From NCBI GenBank assembly GCA_030835825.1, contig JAURRA010000007.1, positions 1 to 64,000 on the forward strand: a stretch of 64,000 nt of DNA, read 5' to 3'. Source of the DNA: Flavobacteriaceae bacterium (GTDB lineage Bacteria > Bacteroidota > Bacteroidia > Flavobacteriales > Flavobacteriaceae). A program made the translations under genes and the position numbers. The notes under the pieces are model-generated. The model saw only the letters and a program-made list of their open reading frames with translations, was not told the origin of the DNA and searched no databases. How positions within the stretch are numbered: position 1 is the stretch's first letter; every line of letters starts with the position of its first letter. Shown here one piece after another: positions 18,989-30,515 of this stretch.

Positions 18989-20248
18989 TTAAGCCAGTCC
19001 AAAGCGTTTGGCCAATTCATTTTTAAAATCCAGTCGCTCCCAAGTAAACAGGTCCACTTTCATCGTTTTGATCTCCCCGTCTGGGAGTTTAAATTCCTTT
19101 TCAACAGTTTGAGGTAGTCTACCCATATGTCCATAGGCTGCGGTTTCCGTATATATGGGTTGACGTAATTTAAGGCGTTCCTCAATGGCAGCAGGTCGCA
19201 TGTCGAAGGTCTTAATGAGAACAGCGGCAATAGCTTCATCGTCGTATCCCATTTTTGCAGTTCCTGCCGTATTCACATAAAAAGAAGTAGGTTCGGCCAC
19301 TCCAATGGCGTATGAGACCTGAATCAATGCCTGATCGCAAATACCCGAAGCCACTAGGTTTTTGGCAATATGTCGTGTAGCATAAGCTGCACTTCGGTCA
19401 ACCTTGCTAGGGTCTTTACCGGAAAAAGCTCCCCCGCCGTGTGCTCCTCGACCACCATATGTATCCACAATAATTTTGCGGCCAGTCAATCCTGTGTCAC
19501 CATGAGGCCCGCCGATTACAAAATTACCGGTTGGGTTGATATGATATTTAATTTGGTGGTCAAACAATTTTTGATGTTTGTCCGACAATTGTGCAATGAC
19601 ACGGGGCATCAAAATATGAATCATATCATCATTTATCTTTTCTCTCATGGCCTTTTCATCCTGTAAAAAAGGATCATGTTGAGTTGATAGAACAACGGTT
19701 TCTACCCGTAAAGGCTGATGATCGTCGGAATACAATATGGTGACCTGACTTTTGGCATCGGGTCGAAGATAAGTTATCTCTTGATTAGACCGTCGAAGAA
19801 CAGCCAATTCCTTTAGAATAAGATGAGAAATTTCTAGGGTTAAAGGCATATAGTGATCGGATTCGTTTGTAGCAAATCCAAAAACAATACCCTGATCGCC
19901 AGCGCCTTGTTCAATTTTAGCCCCTTTATCTACACCGCGGTTGATATCTTCGGACTGCTCGTGGATCGCCGACAAAACACCACATGAATTGCCGTCGAAC
20001 ATATAATCAGACTTGGTATATCCGATGCGGTTGATTGTATCCCGGGCAATCTGTTGTACATCCAGATATACTTTAGACTTAACCTCTCCGGCCAGTATGA
20101 CTTGACCAGTTGTGACAAGAGTTTCACAAGCTACCTTGGCCTCAGTATCAAAGGCTATAAAGTTATCGATTAAAGCATCGCTGATTTGATCAGCAATTTT
20201 ATCAGGATGTCCTTCTGACACACTTTCGGAAGTGAATAGATAGGCCAT
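18989..20248 (-). CDS. metK: S-adenosylmethionine synthetase
   Basis: Makes S-adenosylmethionine from methionine and ATP. I place the start at 20248, giving 419 residues and the family opening AYLFTSESVSEGHPDKIADQ. An in-frame ATG at 20353 would add 35 residues unlike any MetK and would run through a riboswitch. Other conserved parts are GAGDQGIVFGFA, FVIGGPHGDTGLTGRKIIVD and the P-loop-like GGGAFSGKDPSKVDRSAAY. The gene has its own promoter with a leader of roughly 110 bases that folds as a SAM-II-type aptamer, so expression should fall when SAM is plentiful. Confidence 0.97.
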   Translation of the reverse strand: MAYLFTSESVSEGHPDKIADQISDALIDNFIAFDTEAKVACETLVTTGQVILAGEVKSKVYLDVQQIARDTINRIGYTKSDYMFDGNSCGVLSAIHEQSEDINRGVDKGAKIEQGAGDQGIVFGFATNESDHYMPLTLEISHLILKELAVLRRSNQEITYLRPDAKSQVTILYSDDHQPLRVETVVLSTQHDPFLQDEKAMREKINDDMIHILMPRVIAQLSDKHQKLFDHQIKYHINPTGNFVIGGPHGDTGLTGRKIIVDTYGGRGAHGGGAFSGKDPSKVDRSAAYATRHIAKNLVASGICDQALIQVSYAIGVAEPTSFYVNTAGTAKMGYDDEAIAAVLIKTFDMRPAAIEERLKLRQPIYTETAAYGHMGRLPQTVEKEFKLPDGEIKTMKVDLFTWERLDFKNELAKRFGLA

Positions 20249-20296
20249 TTCTAAAAAGTTATTTGAAAATTGATTGTATGGAAATAGAATGTCGTC

Positions 20297-20349
20297 ACTG
20301 TCTTTAGCATTTTTGTGGGTGAGGTTGCAATCAGTCAAATTTCTCCTCA
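20297..20349 (-). ncRNA. SAM-II-type riboswitch in the metK leader
   Basis: Read on the minus strand, TGAGG (20345-20349) pairs with CCTCA (20320-20324) to form P1. The loop holds AATTTGACTGATTGCAA, which keeps the AUUU...AUUGCAA spacing of known SAM-II aptamers. Downstream comes AATGCTAAAG, matching the conserved GCUAAA block, and ACTG (20332-20335) in the loop is complementary to CAGT (20297-20300), giving the pseudoknot. It begins a few bases after the likely transcription start and lies 48 bases before the metK ATG. The match was made by eye; a covariance search would settle it. Confidence 0.82.
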
Positions 20350-20361
20350 ACAATTGAGCTG

Positions 20362-23084: not shown

Positions 23085-23114
23085 TTGTTCGACTTAATTT
23101 TATTATTACATTCG
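23085..23114 (+). promoter_or_regulatory. Candidate promoter of the pheA leader
   Basis: TTG at 23085-23087 and TACATTCG at 23107-23114 (one mismatch to TAnnTTTG) are 19 bases apart. The leader ATG begins five bases after the -7 element, so the leader peptide mRNA may be nearly or wholly leaderless. Confidence 0.45.
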
Positions 23115-23119
23115 TACTC

Positions 23120-23185
23120 ATGACTGCAGAGCTGTATTTTTATTTTAGCTATTATTTCTTCAGTGGCTCGCCACTCGAGACCTAA
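23120..23185 (+). CDS. Aromatic leader peptide of the pheA operon attenuator
   Basis: A 21-residue reading frame whose core is YFYFSYYFF (codons at 23135-23161): eight aromatic codons, four Tyr and four Phe, in nine. The remaining codons end in SGSPLET and a TAA at 23183-23185. This is the classic shape of an attenuator leader that senses charged tRNA-Phe and tRNA-Tyr. Its last codons overlap a hairpin and an antiterminator segment, so a ribosome stalled on the aromatic codons would leave these free. It lies 79 bases before pheA, the first gene of the aromatic operon. Inference from sequence only, but the coincidence of all parts is strong. Confidence 0.85.
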   Translation: MTAELYFYFSYYFFSGSPLET

Positions 23186-23240
23186 GCAGTGTTTTGTTTA
23201 AAGAACCACTATAGTCTCGATTTTGCGAGGCTTTTTTTTT
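23162..23240 (+). promoter_or_regulatory. Transcription attenuator upstream of pheA
   Basis: Three elements follow the aromatic codons. A hairpin AGTGG-CTCG-CCACT spans 23162-23175. CGAGAC at 23176-23181 is exactly complementary to GTCTCG at 23214-23219, forming an antiterminator. GTCTCG also pairs with CGAGGC (23226-23231) to form a 6-bp terminator stem followed by nine T (23232-23240). Antiterminator and terminator share one strand and so exclude each other. Ribosome stalling on Tyr/Phe codons should favour read-through into pheA. Confidence 0.85.
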
Positions 23241-23264
23241 GTCAATAATTGACTGAATTGTTTT

Positions 23265-24092
23265 ATGAAAAAAATTGCTATTCAAGGGGTACGCGGCTCA
23301 TTTCACCACATCGTGAGCCATAAGTTTTTTAAGGAAGAACCGGAACTACTCGAGTGTGACAGCTTTGATTTGATGGTAAAGAAATTGAATCAAGGTGAAT
23401 GTGACGGCGCGGTTATGGCGCTTGAAAACTCAATCGCTGGGTCAATTTTGCCAAACCACGCCTTGATTGATTCTAATGACTTACTCATCCAAGGTGAACG
23501 CTACTTGGACATTCAAATGAATATGATGGCGCTTCCTGGACAGACAATTGCTGATATTACTGAGGTCCACTCCCATCCCATTGCCTTGTTACAATGTAAA
23601 TTATTCTTTGATCAATATCCACACATCAAGCTCGTTGAAGCCGATGATACTGCCGATGTCGCTCGAGATATTAAGAATAAAAAAATTAAAAAGCGCGCTG
23701 CCATAGGAAGTCTTTTGGCTGCAGAAATTTTCGATTTGCACATATTGGCCAAAAGTATACAGACCATTGCGACCAATCAAACTCGTTTTGTACTGCTATC
23801 CAAAACACTATCCGAGCACAATCCGCTCCAAGTCAATAAAGCTTCTTTTAAATTTGAATTAAATCACCAACGGGGCAGTTTGGCATCAATACTAAATGTT
23901 ATGAGTGATTGTAATTTGAATTTGACAAAAATTCAATCATTACCGAAAATAGATACACCTTGGACTTATGGTTTTTTTGCCGATGTGACTTTTGATACTT
24001 ATCAAAATTTTGAAAAAGCTATCGCTATTATGAAACTGATGGCCAAGGTATTTAAAGTGATGGGGGTCTATCAAAATCAAAGGGACTTATGA
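23265..24092 (+). CDS. pheA: Prephenate dehydratase
   Basis: Converts prephenate to phenylpyruvate, the committed step to phenylalanine. The 275 residues hold a periplasmic-binding-like catalytic domain (IAIQGVRGSFHH, VMALENSIAGSI, and the catalytic TRF in NQTRFVLLSK) and a C-terminal ACT domain (GSLASILNVM). In place of the ESRP motif used for Phe binding in many regulators the ACT domain has QSLP, so allosteric feedback may differ. No fused chorismate mutase is present; that activity is two genes downstream. The ATG lies 24 bases after the attenuator T-run, and the stop overlaps the aminotransferase start as ATGA. Confidence 0.95.
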   Translation: MKKIAIQGVRGSFHHIVSHKFFKEEPELLECDSFDLMVKKLNQGECDGAVMALENSIAGSILPNHALIDSNDLLIQGERYLDIQMNMMALPGQTIADITEVHSHPIALLQCKLFFDQYPHIKLVEADDTADVARDIKNKKIKKRAAIGSLLAAEIFDLHILAKSIQTIATNQTRFVLLSKTLSEHNPLQVNKASFKFELNHQRGSLASILNVMSDCNLNLTKIQSLPKIDTPWTYGFFADVTFDTYQNFEKAIAIMKLMAKVFKVMGVYQNQRDL

Positions 24093-25252
24093 CAGCTGCA
24101 AACAGGCTTGCTTCAGTGCAAGAGTATTATTTTTCGAAAAAACTACAAGAGGTCAATGAGATGAAATCCCGTGGCTGTGATATCATCAATTTGGGTATTG
24201 GCAGTCCGGATTTATTACCGCCCAATGAGGCCATTGATGCCCTCAGTAATAGCCTCTTGGACAACAACTCGAATGGATATCAGAGTTATAGGGGGCTTCT
24301 GGAATTGAGAGAGGCCATGGCGCATTTCTATGCTGCGCATTTCAGTATCAGCCTTGACCCCCTCACTGAGGTGCTCCCCTTGATGGGTAGTAAGGAAGGA
24401 ATTATGCACATTTCAATGGCTTTCCTCAATCCAGGGGATCATGTGCTTATTCCAAATCCAGGTTATCCAACCTACGAATCAGTTAGCCGATTGGTGGAAG
24501 CTGTCCCAGTTTTTTATGATTTGGATGAGACCTCGGATTGGCTCCCAAACCTAGACCATTTGGCACAAATGGACCTGTCTAAAGTTAAATTGATGTGGAT
24601 TAATTATCCGCACATGCCTTCTGGTGCCAAAGCATCAGTAAAAATATTAACCGATCTCGTAGCGTTTGCCCAGAAGCACAATATTTTATTAGTCAATGAT
24701 AATCCCTATAGTTTGATTTTAAACGATCAACCGCTTAGCTTGATCTCTATTCCAGGAAGTCGGCATTGCTGTTTGGAGTTGAATTCAATCAGTAAAACCT
24801 TTAATATGTCGGGATGGAGAGTCGGCATGGTAGTTGGCGACAAAATTATGATTGACCATATTTTAAAGGTAAAAAGCAATATGGATTCAGGCATGTTTTA
24901 TGGATTGCAAAAGGGTTCTATCGTTGCTCTTCAGTCAAACGACCAATGGTTTGACACTTTGAATAAAACCTATAATGACAGACGGCAATTGGTTTGGCAA
25001 TTAGCCGAAAAATTAGGAGGTCATTTTCAAAAGGACAATGCGGGGATGTTCGTTTGGTTAAAACTTCCTGAGGGTACTCAGTCAATAGAATTTTCTGAAA
25101 GAATTTTACATGACTATCATATTTTTACAACACCAGGAGATATTTTTGGATCTCAGGGTAAGGGATATTTACGCCTATCGCTCTGTCTGGAGGCTGCGCG
25201 TATCAAAGAGGCTATTCACAGGATTAAACATAAATTAAAACACGACTCATAG
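24089..25252 (+). CDS. PLP-dependent class I/II aminotransferase, probably aromatic
   Basis: A 387-residue fold-type I aminotransferase. It has the N-terminal LGIGSPDLLPP substrate-site motif, NPGYPTYESV, NDNPYSLIL for cofactor contact, and the PLP-binding lysine in SISKTFNMSGWRVG. Sitting between pheA and DAHP synthase and translationally coupled to pheA by a 4-base overlap, it most likely converts phenylpyruvate (and hydroxyphenylpyruvate) to the amino acids or acts on prephenate. Sequence alone does not exclude aspartate or LL-diaminopimelate specificity. The next gene starts immediately after the stop. Confidence 0.88.
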   Translation: MTAANRLASVQEYYFSKKLQEVNEMKSRGCDIINLGIGSPDLLPPNEAIDALSNSLLDNNSNGYQSYRGLLELREAMAHFYAAHFSISLDPLTEVLPLMGSKEGIMHISMAFLNPGDHVLIPNPGYPTYESVSRLVEAVPVFYDLDETSDWLPNLDHLAQMDLSKVKLMWINYPHMPSGAKASVKILTDLVAFAQKHNILLVNDNPYSLILNDQPLSLISIPGSRHCCLELNSISKTFNMSGWRVGMVVGDKIMIDHILKVKSNMDSGMFYGLQKGSIVALQSNDQWFDTLNKTYNDRRQLVWQLAEKLGGHFQKDNAGMFVWLKLPEGTQSIEFSERILHDYHIFTTPGDIFGSQGKGYLRLSLCLEAARIKEAIHRIKHKLKHDS

Positions 25253-26338
25253 ATGGAAAACAATCAAAATCTAAAAAGCTGGCTAAACGACTACAATCTG
25301 AAACATCCTATGGTGATTGCTGGGCCATGTAGTGCAGAAACAGAGACGCAAATGCTCGACGCTGCGTTTCAATTAAAAGACAGCGACACATCTGTGTTTA
25401 GAGCTGGTATTTGGAAGCCTAGAACCCGACCTGGCAATTTCGAAGGGGTGGGTGCCATTGGACTAAAATGGCTTCAAACGGTCAAGGCTGAAACTGGGCT
25501 GCAAACTGCAACGGAAGTAGCTAATGCCAATCACGTTGAACTGGCTCTGGAGCATGATGTCGATGTCCTTTGGATCGGCGCTAGAACTACTGTCAATCCT
25601 TTTATGGTGCAAGAACTTGCCAATGCTTTGGCTGGTGTAGACAAACCGATTTTAGTCAAAAATCCAGTCAATCCCGATTTAGCGCTTTGGCTTGGTGCTG
25701 TTGAACGCCTGCATAAATCAAATATCCAAAAATTGGGCGTCATCCACAGAGGTTTTTCGAGCTATGAAAAATCTAAATACCGCAATAAACCCGAATGGCA
25801 AATCCCGATTGAATTACAAAATCAATTTCCCGATCTTCCTTTATTTGTAGACCCTTCTCATATCGGCGGTAAAAGAGATTTGATTTTAGAACTTTGTCAA
25901 AAGGCTTTAGACTTGAACTTTGATGGCATGATGATTGAAACACACCCAACGCCTGAAAAAGCATGGAGTGATGCCGAACAGCAAGTTACCCCCGAGCGAC
26001 TAAAGGAGATTTTGAAGAGCTTAGTGGTCAGAGATCCAATGCTTGAGGGTGCCGAGTATGTCAACAAATTGGAGAAATTGCGAACTAAAATTGACAGCTT
26101 TGATGATCGTCTATTGCAGGTGTTGGGCCAACGAATGACGGTGGTTGAACAAATTGGTCAATTGAAAAAAAGTCAAAATGTGGCTGTTTTGCAGAACGCC
26201 CGTTGGCATGAAATTTTAAAAAAAATGGTAGATATGGGAGAAAAAGAGCATTTGAGTGCGGAATTTGTTACTAAAATTTTCCAAGCCATTCATCAAGAGT
26301 CTATCAATCATCAAGAGCAAATTATGAATCAACAATAG
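25253..26338 (+). CDS. Bifunctional DAHP synthase (type Iβ)/chorismate mutase (AroQ type)
   Basis: The 361 residues join two enzymes. Residues 15 to about 255 are a 3-deoxy-7-phosphoheptulonate synthase with VIAGPCSAETETQMLDA, FRAGIWKPRTRPGNF, EVANANHVELALEHDVDVLW-like barrel strands, PSHIGGKRDL and MIETHPTPEKAWSD. Residues from about 275 on are an all-helical chorismate mutase (LRTKIDSFDDRLLQVLGQRM, then QLKKSQNV). The fusion lets the mutase domain confer feedback control on the first shikimate step, as known in Bacteroidota. It starts directly after the aminotransferase stop. The usual intervening tyrA is missing. Confidence 0.93.
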   Translation: MENNQNLKSWLNDYNLKHPMVIAGPCSAETETQMLDAAFQLKDSDTSVFRAGIWKPRTRPGNFEGVGAIGLKWLQTVKAETGLQTATEVANANHVELALEHDVDVLWIGARTTVNPFMVQELANALAGVDKPILVKNPVNPDLALWLGAVERLHKSNIQKLGVIHRGFSSYEKSKYRNKPEWQIPIELQNQFPDLPLFVDPSHIGGKRDLILELCQKALDLNFDGMMIETHPTPEKAWSDAEQQVTPERLKEILKSLVVRDPMLEGAEYVNKLEKLRTKIDSFDDRLLQVLGQRMTVVEQIGQLKKSQNVAVLQNARWHEILKKMVDMGEKEHLSAEFVTKIFQAIHQESINHQEQIMNQQ

Positions 26339-26368: not shown

Positions 26369-27316
26369 ATGACAGGAACAGTATACAAATCTACGGGAAG
26401 TTGGTATGTGGTGAAATCGCCTTCTGGTGCGTTTTTTAAATGCAGAGCTAAAGGCCGACTTCGTTTAGCTAATTTTAAGAGTACAAACCCCATTGCTGTG
26501 GGCGATCTGGTAGATTTTGAACTGGAAATGACAAGCGATCAAGCCACGGGAGTAATCGAGAACATTCATGAGAGACACAATTATATTGTCCGAAAATCGG
26601 TCAATTTATCAAAACAGACACATATTATTGCCAGTAATATCCACCAAGTACTTTTGATTGTGACCATCAATAACCCCGTAACCATGACAAGTTTTATTGA
26701 CCGGTTTTTAGTTACGGCAGAAGCTTATCACATTAAGGCAGTTTTGCTGTTTAATAAAATTGACACCTATGATGATACTGCAAGAGAAACTGCCACACTC
26801 CTGCAAGCATGTTACAGTAAAATTGGATATACTTGTCTGGAAATATCGGCTCAAAATCAAATCAATACGGAAAGTGTAAAAGCGCTGATGAAAGGTAAAG
26901 TAAATATGATTTCAGGTCATTCGGGTGTGGGCAAGTCTACCCTCGTCAATGCCCTCGATCCTGATCTGAATTTGAGGACAGCTTCTATTTCGGATCAACA
27001 CCAACAAGGACAACACACGACGACTTTCGCCGAAATGTTTGATTTAGAATTTGATGCACAAATTATAGACACCCCAGGAATTCGAGGGTTTGGAATCGTT
27101 GATATGGAGCCCGAAGAAATAGGAGATTATTTCCCAGAGATGTTGGCTTTAAAAAATGAATGTAAATTTAACAATTGCTTGCATAAAGACGAACCACATT
27201 GTGCTGTGAAGAGCGCTATTGAAAACAGTCAAATTGCCGAGTCTCGATACCACAGTTATTTGCAAATGCTGGAAGGAGATCAGGGTAATTACAGAAATGA
27301 TATTTATCCCGATTAA
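26369..27316 (+). CDS. rsgA: Ribosome small subunit-dependent GTPase A
   Basis: A circularly permuted GTPase that helps late 30S subunit maturation. In 315 residues the G motifs appear in the order G4 (LLFNKIDTYDD), G1 (GHSGVGKST) and G3 (DTPGIRGFG), preceded by an OB-fold. The C-terminal zinc-binding motif CKFNNCLHKDEPHC follows. It lies 30 bases after the DAHP synthase gene in the same direction and 13 bases before dtd, so it is probably part of the long aromatic operon while possibly having a promoter of its own. Confidence 0.96.
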   Translation: MTGTVYKSTGSWYVVKSPSGAFFKCRAKGRLRLANFKSTNPIAVGDLVDFELEMTSDQATGVIENIHERHNYIVRKSVNLSKQTHIIASNIHQVLLIVTINNPVTMTSFIDRFLVTAEAYHIKAVLLFNKIDTYDDTARETATLLQACYSKIGYTCLEISAQNQINTESVKALMKGKVNMISGHSGVGKSTLVNALDPDLNLRTASISDQHQQGQHTTTFAEMFDLEFDAQIIDTPGIRGFGIVDMEPEEIGDYFPEMLALKNECKFNNCLHKDEPHCAVKSAIENSQIAESRYHSYLQMLEGDQGNYRNDIYPD

Positions 27317-27329
27317 TGGTGGTCATTTC

Positions 27330-27794
27330 ATGAAGGCAGTAGTTCAAAGGGTATCCCAAGCAGAAGTGACAGTAAATGGACAAGTCAAAGGTTCTATTGG
27401 CATTGGTCTTTTGGTATTGCTGGGGATAGCTCAAGAAGACAACAGGTCCGATGCCGATTGGTTGGTGAGTAAGATACTCCAATGTCGCATATTTGCCGAC
27501 CAGTCAAAAAAAATGAATTTGTCAGTTTTGGCCGTTAACGGTGAGGTATTGTTAATTAGTCAATTTACCCTTTTAGCCAATGTGCTTCAAGGGAATAGAC
27601 CCAGCTATAAGGATGCTGCTTCGCCAGAAAAGGCTTTAGAGCTATATCATTATTGCATGGATCGAATAAAAGCAGAACTGACCACCAATCTTCAAACCGG
27701 TGAATTTGGAGCTATGATGGAGGTTTCTCTAAAGAATGATGGTCCAGTAACTATCGTTTTTGACTCGAAAAGTAAACACAAAACACATGAATAA
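27330..27794 (+). CDS. dtd: D-aminoacyl-tRNA deacylase
   Basis: Hydrolyses D-amino acids wrongly attached to tRNA. I start at the ATG at 27330, giving 154 residues and the family opening MKAVVQRVSQAEVTVNG; codons further upstream lie inside rsgA in another frame. The signature SQFTLLANV and the C-terminal MMEVSLKNDGPVTIV (the NxGP-like active-site loop) are present. It overlaps the mazG-like gene by eight bases, which indicates translational coupling within the operon. Confidence 0.94.
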   Translation: MKAVVQRVSQAEVTVNGQVKGSIGIGLLVLLGIAQEDNRSDADWLVSKILQCRIFADQSKKMNLSVLAVNGEVLLISQFTLLANVLQGNRPSYKDAASPEKALELYHYCMDRIKAELTTNLQTGEFGAMMEVSLKNDGPVTIVFDSKSKHKTHE

Positions 27795-28116
27795 TTTGAA
27801 TGAAGCTCAAAGCACAGTCGATCAATGGATCAAGGAACACGGCGTGAGATATTTTGACCCATTGACCAATATGGCTCAGCTGACAGAAGAAGTCGGTGAG
27901 GTAGCCAGAATTATTGCGAGACGATATGGTGAGCAAAGTGAAAAACCAAATGACAAATTGAAAGATTTGGGCGAAGAGTTGGCCGATGTTGTTTTTGTTG
28001 TTTTATGCCTAGCTAATCAAACTGGAATTGATCTTCAAGAGGCTTTTGATAAAAAATTGGAACTCAAGTCTAAAAGAGATCACAATCGTCATCATGACAA
28101 TGAAAAACTGAGATAA
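27787..28116 (+). CDS. MazG-like nucleotide pyrophosphohydrolase
   Basis: A 109-residue MazG-fold protein that probably hydrolyses non-canonical or excess nucleoside triphosphates. The metal-binding acidic motif appears as EEVGEVARIIARR and EELADVVFVVLCLA. The start at 27787 follows the family opening with NNLNEAQSTVDQWI; a longer frame from 27760 would lie inside dtd. The C-terminus is rich in Lys, Arg and His. It lies 16 bases before aroA and overlaps dtd. Confidence 0.88.
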   Translation: MNNLNEAQSTVDQWIKEHGVRYFDPLTNMAQLTEEVGEVARIIARRYGEQSEKPNDKLKDLGEELADVVFVVLCLANQTGIDLQEAFDKKLELKSKRDHNRHHDNEKLR

Positions 28117-28132
28117 CTACTGATTTAATGTT

Positions 28133-29368
28133 ATGAATATTCGACTGTGCAATTTTAATATTAAGTCTACCCAACAGCCTGTCTTGGTTCCGGGGTCAAA
28201 GAGCGAGTCGAATAGACTTCTGATCTTGAAGGCTTGGTACCCATCAATTAAAATCTACAACTTATCAACGGCCGTTGATACAGTTAAATTGGTAAGGGCC
28301 CTCGAAAGCTTCCCCAATGATATTGTTGATGTACACCATGCTGGCACGGCCATGCGTTTTTTAACGGCTTTCTTTGCAGCTCGGGAAAACTGTAAGGTGA
28401 CTTTGACTGGTTCGGCAAGGATGCAAGAGCGTCCAATTGGGGTTCTTGTTAGCGCGTTGAGAGAACTGGGAGCCGAAATAGATTACGCCAAAGAGCAAGG
28501 CTTTCCGCCACTTAGAATCAGGGGCAAAAAATTATCCGGAGGAACTCTTACGCTTGACCCTTCCGTCAGTAGTCAGTATGTTTCTGCCTTAATCCTCATC
28601 GCTCCACAACTTGACAATGGCTTAGAATTGCGATTCAAAAAGAAACCAACATCGATGCCTTATATTGAAATGACTGCGCAGTTGCTCAAAGATATGGGTG
28701 TAGCGTGTCATGTCGATCAATTGGGGGTTACCATTTCACCGTTTCATGGAGATTTAAAAGCGAAGGAGTTTGAAGTTTGCTCTGATTGGTCTTCGGCATC
28801 CTATTATTTTAGTGCTGCAGCTTTGAGTCCGGTAGGCACAAAAATTGTTTTGACAAATTTTGTGTCTAATAATCTTCAAGGAGACGCAGGCGTTATGCAG
28901 ATATATCAATTGTTTGGTGTTTCAGCAACCCAATCGAAAGGAGAATTGACAATAGAAAAGATCAGTGATATTTTGCCTAGTCAGGTTGAATTGGACTTGA
29001 ATGAAACGCCAGATTTGGCACAAACTATCGCAATTAGCTGCCTTGGATTGAAAATTCCATGCAAGCTGACAGGCTTACATACATTGAAAATTAAAGAAAC
29101 AGATCGGTTACTCGCCTTGAAAACAGAAATGGAGAAATGTGGAGCAATTGTAAAAATTTCTGATAACACCTTGATCCTGAAATCCATGGGAGATTGTCCT
29201 GAGGATGTTGTTATTGATACTTATAATGACCACAGAATGGCCATGTCGTTTGCGCCACTGAGTATCCTTAATTCTATTGTAATTAAAGACGCCAAAGTGG
29301 TGGAGAAATCTTATCCCGATTTTTGGGAAGACTTTAAAAAAATTGGCTTAAACTGGGAAGTTTTTTAA
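28133..29368 (+). CDS. aroA: 3-Phosphoshikimate 1-carboxyvinyltransferase (EPSP synthase)
   Basis: The sixth shikimate-pathway enzyme, joining shikimate 3-phosphate and phosphoenolpyruvate. The 411 residues contain VPGSKSESNRLLILKA, the HAGTAMRFLTAFFA loop, QERPIGVL, KETDRLLALK and the C-terminal DTYNDHRMAMSFAP. In many bacteria the PEP-site loop reads NAGTAMRPL; here it is HAGTAMRFL, with Phe in place of Pro as in other Bacteroidota. It is the last gene of the aromatic operon opened by pheA, 16 bases after the MazG-like gene. Confidence 0.95.
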   Translation: MNIRLCNFNIKSTQQPVLVPGSKSESNRLLILKAWYPSIKIYNLSTAVDTVKLVRALESFPNDIVDVHHAGTAMRFLTAFFAARENCKVTLTGSARMQERPIGVLVSALRELGAEIDYAKEQGFPPLRIRGKKLSGGTLTLDPSVSSQYVSALILIAPQLDNGLELRFKKKPTSMPYIEMTAQLLKDMGVACHVDQLGVTISPFHGDLKAKEFEVCSDWSSASYYFSAAALSPVGTKIVLTNFVSNNLQGDAGVMQIYQLFGVSATQSKGELTIEKISDILPSQVELDLNETPDLAQTIAISCLGLKIPCKLTGLHTLKIKETDRLLALKTEMEKCGAIVKISDNTLILKSMGDCPEDVVIDTYNDHRMAMSFAPLSILNSIVIKDAKVVEKSYPDFWEDFKKIGLNWEVF

Positions 29369-30486: not shown

Positions 30487-30492
30487 ATTAAG

Positions 30493-30515
30493 GCCTCGCA
30501 GCGCGGGGCTTTTTT
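30493..30515 (+). terminator. Terminator between queA and rlmN
   Basis: GCCTCGC (30493-30499) pairs with GCGGGGC (30503-30509) around a three-base loop and is followed by six T. It ends six bases before the rlmN ATG. Confidence 0.85.

Follow-up and report, generated by a model that had tools for sequence, protein, structure and literature searches.

A probable leader-peptide attenuator with tyrosine and phenylalanine codons ahead of pheA in a Flavobacteriaceae bacterium, with counterparts across the Bacteroidota

The region upstream of pheA in the window, by which we mean the whole 64,000-nucleotide stretch of Flavobacteriaceae DNA that was analysed, very probably carries a ribosome-mediated transcription attenuator, minimal in its design of three strands, which would answer a shortage of tyrosine or phenylalanine. 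The mechanism is of a known kind, and the finding is well supported by sequence. Comparable leaders were found in many relatives, and we consider it likely that leader peptides form a modular code for the aromatic pathway that is widespread in the Bacteroidota. A single attenuator chassis with three strands would stand before carbon-committing genes, with the codons retuned to the product still served: Phe and Tyr (and Trp) at pheA, Tyr at the hydroxylase, where the attenuator would be Tyr-specific, and Trp-Trp at DAHP synthase in some genomes lacking pheA and tyrA, with tandem copies in some.

The features of the window and the leaders found at other genes are listed in Table 1. On direct reading, the frame of 21 codons, its eight Tyr/Phe codons in nine, the strands A, B and C and the run of nine T proved to have been placed correctly to the base by the first-pass annotation. 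The aromatic codon run is not due to chance: when the 257-nt intergenic region was shuffled 5000 times with its dinucleotides preserved, no ATG frame had eight Tyr/Phe in nine codons, and the maximum was seven, reached twice. The folding of the whole region was only moderately better than that of shuffles (z of −1.96); folding energy is therefore a weak witness, and the case rests on conservation. The energies in the window were −11.1 kcal/mol for the antiterminator segment and −8.4 kcal/mol for the terminator hairpin, and the terminator was the more stable of the two in just 50 of 144 leader loci. Since it is the less stable structure in most loci, termination would depend on masking by the ribosome. 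A match to TAnnTTTG, which we take to be the −7 promoter consensus, was present, with one mismatch at most and no further than 35 nt from the leader ATG, in 131 of 143 loci, compared with 44% of mononucleotide shuffles. The close vicinity of the putative −7 element to the ATG suggests that the leader ORF of the window would be near-leaderless; the gap ranges from 2 to 33 nt across loci, and such a start is not general.

Table 1. Features of the window, and leaders found ahead of other genes in relatives
Feature	Coordinates	Strand	Remarks
ORF with SAM-II at its 5' end	18989..20353		Presumably S-adenosylmethionine synthetase-like, by sequence recognition
SAM-II riboswitch (RF01726)	20294..20354	−	53.4 bits vs 44; sole curated riboswitch match in the whole window
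Promoter-like −7 element TACATTCG	23107..23114	+	One mismatch to TAnnTTTG; 5 nt 5' of the leader ATG
Leader peptide ORF	23120..23185	+	21 codons, MTAELYFYFSYYFFSGSPLET; ATG 23120, TAA 23183-23185; read directly
Control region	23135..23161	+	Codons 6-14, Y F Y F S Y Y F F; 4 Tyr and 4 Phe in 9
Small hairpin GUGG-CUCG-CCAC	23163..23174	+	Genus-specific
Strand A, CGAGAC	23176..23181	+	Putative antiterminator 5' arm, within the leader's last codons, just before the stop
Strand B, GTCTCG	23214..23219	+	Common to putative antiterminator and terminator
Strand C, CGAGGC	23226..23231	+	Putative terminator 3' arm
T tract, T9	23232..23240	+	Part of the putative intrinsic terminator; 24 nt before the pheA start at 23265
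pheA, prephenate dehydratase	23265..24092	+	PF00800, E 1e-49
Class I/II aminotransferase	24089..25252	+	PF00155, E 4.3e-57
DAHP synthase-chorismate mutase fusion	25253..26338	+	PF00793 and PF01817; abuts the aminotransferase (25252/25253)
rsgA, small-subunit biogenesis GTPase	26369..27316	+	TIGR00157, above cut-off
dtd, D-aminoacyl-tRNA deacylase	27330..27794	+	TIGR00256, above cut-off; start codon picked by eye
MazG-like nucleotide pyrophosphohydrolase	27787..28116	+	PF03819, E 3.9e-14; start codon picked by eye
aroA, EPSP synthase	28133..29368	+	TIGR01356, 287.6 vs cut-off 287.25, just above
Terminator-like site	30490..30512		3' of queA
Tyr-run leaders			Before phenylalanine 4-monooxygenase: L260 (G359), L261 (G111), L298, L302, L305-L308, L313, L320, L322, L323, L325, L266, L036
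Trp-Trp leaders			Before DAHP synthase-chorismate mutase: L247 (G036), L267 (G030)
His-run leaders			Before hisG: L185-L206

The pheA gene was found in 44 of 60 relatives and in at least 573 stretches of the named collection, the best 80 of which were used. These 124 loci yielded 119 upstream regions after five repeats were dropped. In a phylum sample pheA was found in 258 of 296 genomes, 40 of which were picked to span families for the study of upstream regions. A leader was called when an ATG frame with at least five Tyr/Phe in nine codons was followed by a terminator within the scanned distance. An aromatic leader with its terminator was present in 144 of the 159 regions (119, including the best 80 of at least 573, and 40), or in 143 of 158 distinct ones after removal of one repeated contig (L016 and L109 are the same contig, and both were counted in the tallies of 159 regions and 144 rows). 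At the sequence level, these loci combine a short ORF, in which codons for the product of the pathway are clustered, with an intrinsic terminator ahead of the first structural gene.

The scan left fifteen regions lacking a leader. In two, the element and its leader were located further upstream of pheA, at approximately 520 nt (G016) and 410 nt (L055), past a repeat-bearing stretch. The gap between attenuator and pheA in G016 (L007/L214) contains several copies of one repeat unit, and that of L055 encodes a similar fragment. Two others (G134 and G328) had an aromatic leader and terminator before a DAHP synthase gene, itself on the same strand upstream of pheA. The other eleven (G026, G047, G040, G053, G151, G345, G310, G306, G278, G208 and G113) showed neither a leader nor a match to the RNA model described below in the sequence examined. 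The leader of L104 was situated at −529 from pheA, beyond the fixed-distance scan, and the terminators of G044 and G057 had a long loop or a short T run. The proposal of a leader attenuator in a Bacteroidota is supported, although it is not peculiar to this bacterium: aromatic leaders were seen in class-mates of families f17, f18, f19, f22, f23 and f25, and in three genomes outside the class (G072, G124 and G212). The PheA proteins of these three scored like those of the class-mates, so that a transfer is possible.

Tandem arrangements were also observed. In L130 (G059), three Phe-rich units of leader plus terminator followed each other within approximately 450 nt before a partial pheA match. 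In L159 (G222) and L184 (G130), of family f23, pheA was preceded by a tandem pair of Tyr/Phe leaders, both with a terminator-like hairpin of their own.

The leader peptides themselves were very diverse, 133 of the 144 being distinct, and were constant only in their aromatic content and in the codons encoding A. The peptide could act by itself, either in cis as an arrest peptide or in trans, as peTrpL of Sinorhizobium is described to do in the text available to us (PMC7298713), but such freely varying sequences make this very unlikely.

The A strand was called by its pairing to B; a requirement of identity between A and C was dropped as too strict, given G-U pairs. Over the 144 rows the score of the own A:B helix averaged 16.6, compared with 9.5 when B was taken from other lineages and 10.2 when the leader was shuffled, and was at least 12 in 143 rows. 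An alignment was built from 77 of the 111 distinct A/B/C triplets, the 34 left out being mostly class- and phylum-level. It was paired in 93.7% of the cells for A:B (20–41% with slid partners) and in 99.6% for B:C (23–54%). Two-sided changes numbered 37 in A:B and 45 in B:C, against 9.2 and 8.1, respectively, in shuffles, which leave the relatedness of the sequences in place. For B:C no measure was reached by any of 500 shuffles. For A:B, two of five measures were not clearly above the shuffles; the count of pairs with a two-sided change (4 of 6) was equalled by 199 of 500 shuffles and that of further pair types by 24 of 500. Judging by this alignment, both exclusive helices are kept through compensatory changes. 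B pairs with either A or C, and A and C consequently vary together through B, with the triplets CGAGAC/GUCUCG/CGAGGC in the window, AGGAU/AUCCUG/CAGGAU in Flavobacterium and GAGCGGUC/GACCGCUC/GAGCGGUC in G044. The terminator and antiterminator sharing a strand, as initially proposed, are in this way backed by covariation in relatives. RNAalifold, a tool unable to show both folds, predicted the terminator only on the 77 sequences.

A pause or protector (1:2) hairpin is usual, if not universal, in trp and his attenuators. The hairpin initially noted before the antiterminator does exist in the window, but the GUGG/CCAC stem was limited to four genomes of the genus and was absent by eye at that place from the other rows of the 77-row alignment. 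It falls outside the conserved core, which, from these comparisons, is made of three strands. No conserved upstream strand able to sequester A was found, and an untranslated leader should therefore read through, unlike in trp.

These data bear on two other readings of the region. The first, a plain terminator of an upstream transcript next to a chance ORF in AT-rich DNA, is hardly credible: the GC content of the leader region is 0.32 and TTT and TAT are AT-rich codons, but the codon run never arose in shuffles, A covaries with B, and the gldA-like gene to the left of the leader is on the minus strand and divergent, so that there is no nearby need for a terminator. Loss of the aromatic frame or of the pairing in relatives had been set beforehand as the refutation test; it was looked for and not seen, both the frame and the two helices being kept. 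The second, in which a riboswitch, a T-box or an RNA-binding protein senses Phe or Tyr and the short ORF is incidental, is very improbable. A SAM-II riboswitch does lie 3 kb away (Table 1), but the Rfam search of the leader region returned no family at threshold and no T-box among its matches, the Phe_leader family (RF01859) reaching 19.9 bits for a gathering threshold of 55 (E 0.8). What is conserved in the RNA is a pair of helices, each six or seven base pairs long, and no aptamer-like core was predicted. The codons, as described below, differ according to what the downstream gene makes.

The preferred reading, attenuation by a translating ribosome, also concerns distances. Counted from the first base of the final Tyr/Phe codon, A began at 7–27 nt in the 143 strong cases (mode 14, sd 3.2), a spread narrowed by the fact that A was sought just 6–36 nt after that codon. 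Relative to the stop codon its position ranged from −30 to +9 (sd 9.1). In the window the start of A lies 17 nt beyond the first base of the final aromatic codon. Given the size of the ribosome footprint, a ribosome halted at the last aromatic codon would end approximately where A begins, and at the stop codon it would usually cover A. In quantitative terms, the proposed mechanism centres on the kept spacing between run and A.

An RNA model built from the last aromatic codon onward, with the run itself excluded, was searched in 60 family genomes. It gave 22 matches at E ≤ 1.2e-4 in genomes outside its training rows, and 21 were examined. The pheA gene was downstream in 19, and 18 of these had an aromatic leader; in the single exception, L223, the start of the contig is too near. 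None of the 19 new pheA loci has a core in common with the model rows; G362 is L074 of the named set. The two matches without pheA were both in G036, one of them being L247, the Trp-Trp leader of a DAHP synthase gene. Nine weaker matches (E 1.8e-4 to 6.7e-4) had no pheA in the fetched stretch, and eight of them no aromatic leader; the ninth, L255, was ahead of a phenylalanine 4-monooxygenase gene. Four more weak matches in the window's own genome had neither pheA nor an aromatic leader.

The ORF, its codons, the two exclusive helices with their compensatory changes and the kept spacing can be read in the sequences, and we propose on this basis the following course of events. Transcription, presumably coupled to translation, would start just 5' of the 21-codon ORF. 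When Tyr-tRNA and Phe-tRNA are ample, the leading ribosome would reach the stop codon, located 3' of A, and would cover A. B would then pair with C, and the RNA polymerase would halt at the T tract before pheA. When Tyr or Phe is short, the ribosome would wait in the aromatic run and leave A free to pair with B; the terminator would be destroyed and the operon transcribed.

The composition of the leaders was in line with the gene that follows. In pheA leaders Phe, Tyr and Trp represented 22%, 16% and 2.4% of the residues, where shuffled leader DNA would give 9.5, 7.0 and 1.0. By the same comparison Phe and Tyr were enriched approximately 2.3-fold, and Leu and Ile were strongly depleted. A Trp codon was present in 77 of 144 leaders (28 expected). 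Among genomes with a leader, it was found in 21 of the 33 possessing trpC and in none of the six devoid of it (Fisher 0.006), a suggestive tracking of trpC by the Trp codon in which the six genomes represent two lineages only. The leader of the window has no Trp codon, like that of the other trpC-less lineage.

For the phenylalanine hydroxylase, 38 upstream regions were collected (the best 30 loci of 60 class genomes with the enzyme, plus six, plus two others). At least four Tyr in nine codons were found in 15 of them, for 0.62 expected from mononucleotide shuffles; none had four Phe in nine, and the other 23 regions had no Tyr-rich leader. The Tyr:Phe ratio was 75:23 in these leaders, as delimited by script, against 522:722 in pheA leaders, related sequences being treated as independent. 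A terminator and a pairing A strand were recognised by script in 12 of the 15, some of the A strands being only 4–5 nt long, and a hairpin with a T run by eye in the other three. The leader of L255, MKNLNNTYYYYPILTRRIGQ, precedes a 244-aa phenylalanine 4-monooxygenase (NF008877 just above cut-off; PF00351). In G059, a genome with no detected tyrA, the phenylalanine hydroxylase gene has a Tyr5 leader (L036).

At DAHP synthase 27 loci were scanned (L292–L294 were left out). Two genomes with trpC but no detected pheA and tyrA, G036 and G030, had leaders MTNNNTWWSNSKFYLKR and MKPIYNFSKAWWHMFQNIR, respectively, with terminators, before the DAHP synthase-chorismate mutase gene. Of 2000 shuffles, 1 gave a WW frame for G036 and 12 did so for G030. 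No Trp leader was seen at DAHP synthase in G025, which lacks pheA, tyrA and trpC, nor at either of the two loci scanned in G049, which lacks pheA and tyrA; as G049 has trpC, it counts against the retuning rule. Aromatic-looking ORFs without a good terminator in G358 and G040 were not counted. At hisG, all 22 genes found in 37 genomes had, by plain count, an upstream ORF with at least three His in nine codons. A terminator was present in 19 of the 22, approximately 13 of these 19 having a convincing A/B/C layout by our own reading, and the A:B pairing of this set was weaker (13.9 compared with 10.8 in shuffles). The leader codons apparently follow the product: Phe and Tyr, often with Trp, at pheA, Tyr at the hydroxylase, Trp-Trp at DAHP synthase and His at hisG. 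As they do so across gene loss, the leaders could be read as a prediction of the purpose of an operon, and, as a natural experiment, they could show how a sensor changes its specificity while the RNA chassis stays the same.

It is possible, though rather unlikely, that the pheA attenuator reads Phe only, the Tyr codons being passive or merely slow. The aroR leader of Corynebacterium glutamicum (Phe-Tyr-Phe) is reported to answer Phe and not Tyr (PMC11802643, in the part of its text available to us), many leaders end the run before A with Phe codons, and G059, where tyrA was undetected, has pheA leaders with Tyr-free runs, the first of which would gain two Tyr codons with an earlier ATG. However, Tyr codons occur in 143 of 144 pheA leaders at more than the expected frequency given above, and the Tyr-rich leaders at the hydroxylase, which lack a Phe run, make it seem that Tyr codons are used as a signal. 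We favour a response to both amino acids, the sensing of Tyr being deduced from the codons.

The biology of the genus is consistent with such a double response. No match to tyrA, trpC or hisG was found in any of the four genomes of the genus (G000–G003), with 14, 14 and 13 of 14 controls positive, respectively. These genomes are 55–95% complete, so a single absence is weak evidence, which cannot be said of four together. Each of the four genomes has retained pheA with its attenuator and has a biopterin-dependent hydroxylase. That of the window's own genome is a 573-aa protein (NF010657, aromatic amino acid hydroxylase, 803 bits for a cut-off of 346) with no aromatic leader of its own. A hydroxylase was present in all seven genomes with pheA and without tyrA (G000–G003, G010, G015 and G059, the pheA match of G059 being partial with an internal stop). 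Tyr is probably made from Phe via the hydroxylase in the window's genus. With tyrA undetected and the hydroxylase present, the operon would feed both pools read by the leader, and the Tyr codons make sense.

The seven genes from pheA to aroA, including those for ribosome assembly (rsgA) and tRNA quality (dtd) already pointed out in the first-pass annotation, were recognised by domain matches and, from their spacing and order, would form one transcript. In relatives tyrA lies between the aminotransferase and DAHP synthase genes, a place with a zero gap in the window. Of the 74 named relatives whose sequence extends 8 kb or more downstream (from the best 80 of at least 573), 72 had the order aminotransferase-tyrA-DAHP synthase, in most cases with rsgA and dtd next; tyrA was missing from the operon in the other two, which were matches to genomes of the window's genus. 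The rsgA gene came next after DAHP synthase in 72 of the 74 from the same best 80 with enough sequence.

In Escherichia coli, the Phe-rich pheL leader precedes the prephenate dehydratase gene, and its terminator and antiterminator are exclusive. The present element resembles this pheA leader (RF01859) in having an aromatic leader before the same gene and exclusive structures. It differs from it in falling below the threshold of the family model, in its Tyr and Phe, often Trp, codons, and in its three strands with no conserved protector hairpin, A overlapping or adjoining the end of the leader. In the ilv and thr operons of E. coli, a single leader carries codons for several of the amino acids that a branched pathway supplies; these leaders are multivalent like that of the window, with other amino acids and another RNA architecture. 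The aroR leader of C. glutamicum was reportedly described by Neshat in 2014. It lies before aroF, according to the accessible text of PMC11802643; like the window's it is a Phe/Tyr leader, but it precedes a DAHP synthase gene, is actinobacterial and has three aromatic codons. Its Phe-only response is the best warning against taking codons as proof of sensing.

In the text available of a 2010 article, leader-peptide systems were said to be, to the authors' knowledge, unshown outside Proteobacteria and Actinobacteria before their Firmicutes case (PMC2965389). In the Bacteroidota, the Bacteroid-trp RNA (RF01692), a cis-regulatory RNA candidate of Bacteroidetes (PMC2864571, accessible part), is another family and had no match in the window. 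For Bacteroides thetaiotaomicron, the accessible part of PMC7366714 mentions short ORFs that resemble leader peptides. The literature searched, which left most subscription papers outside, described neither a leader specific for Tyr at phenylalanine hydroxylase, nor the wide spread, nor the apparent retuning of codons to surviving products. The closest precedent is Flavobacterium psychrophilum, of the same family, in which conserved structured 5' elements kept in other genera and without an Rfam hit were described before pheA and hisG, with strong clues for leader-peptide attenuation of amino-acid operons and an absence of Shine-Dalgarno sequences (PMC9723704). The accessible text of that paper gives no codons, strands, covariation or specificity. 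It represents partial prior art: the element had in part been noticed there. Altogether, leader-peptide attenuators may be placed in many Bacteroidota families, at least at pheA, hisG, phenylalanine hydroxylase and DAHP synthase.
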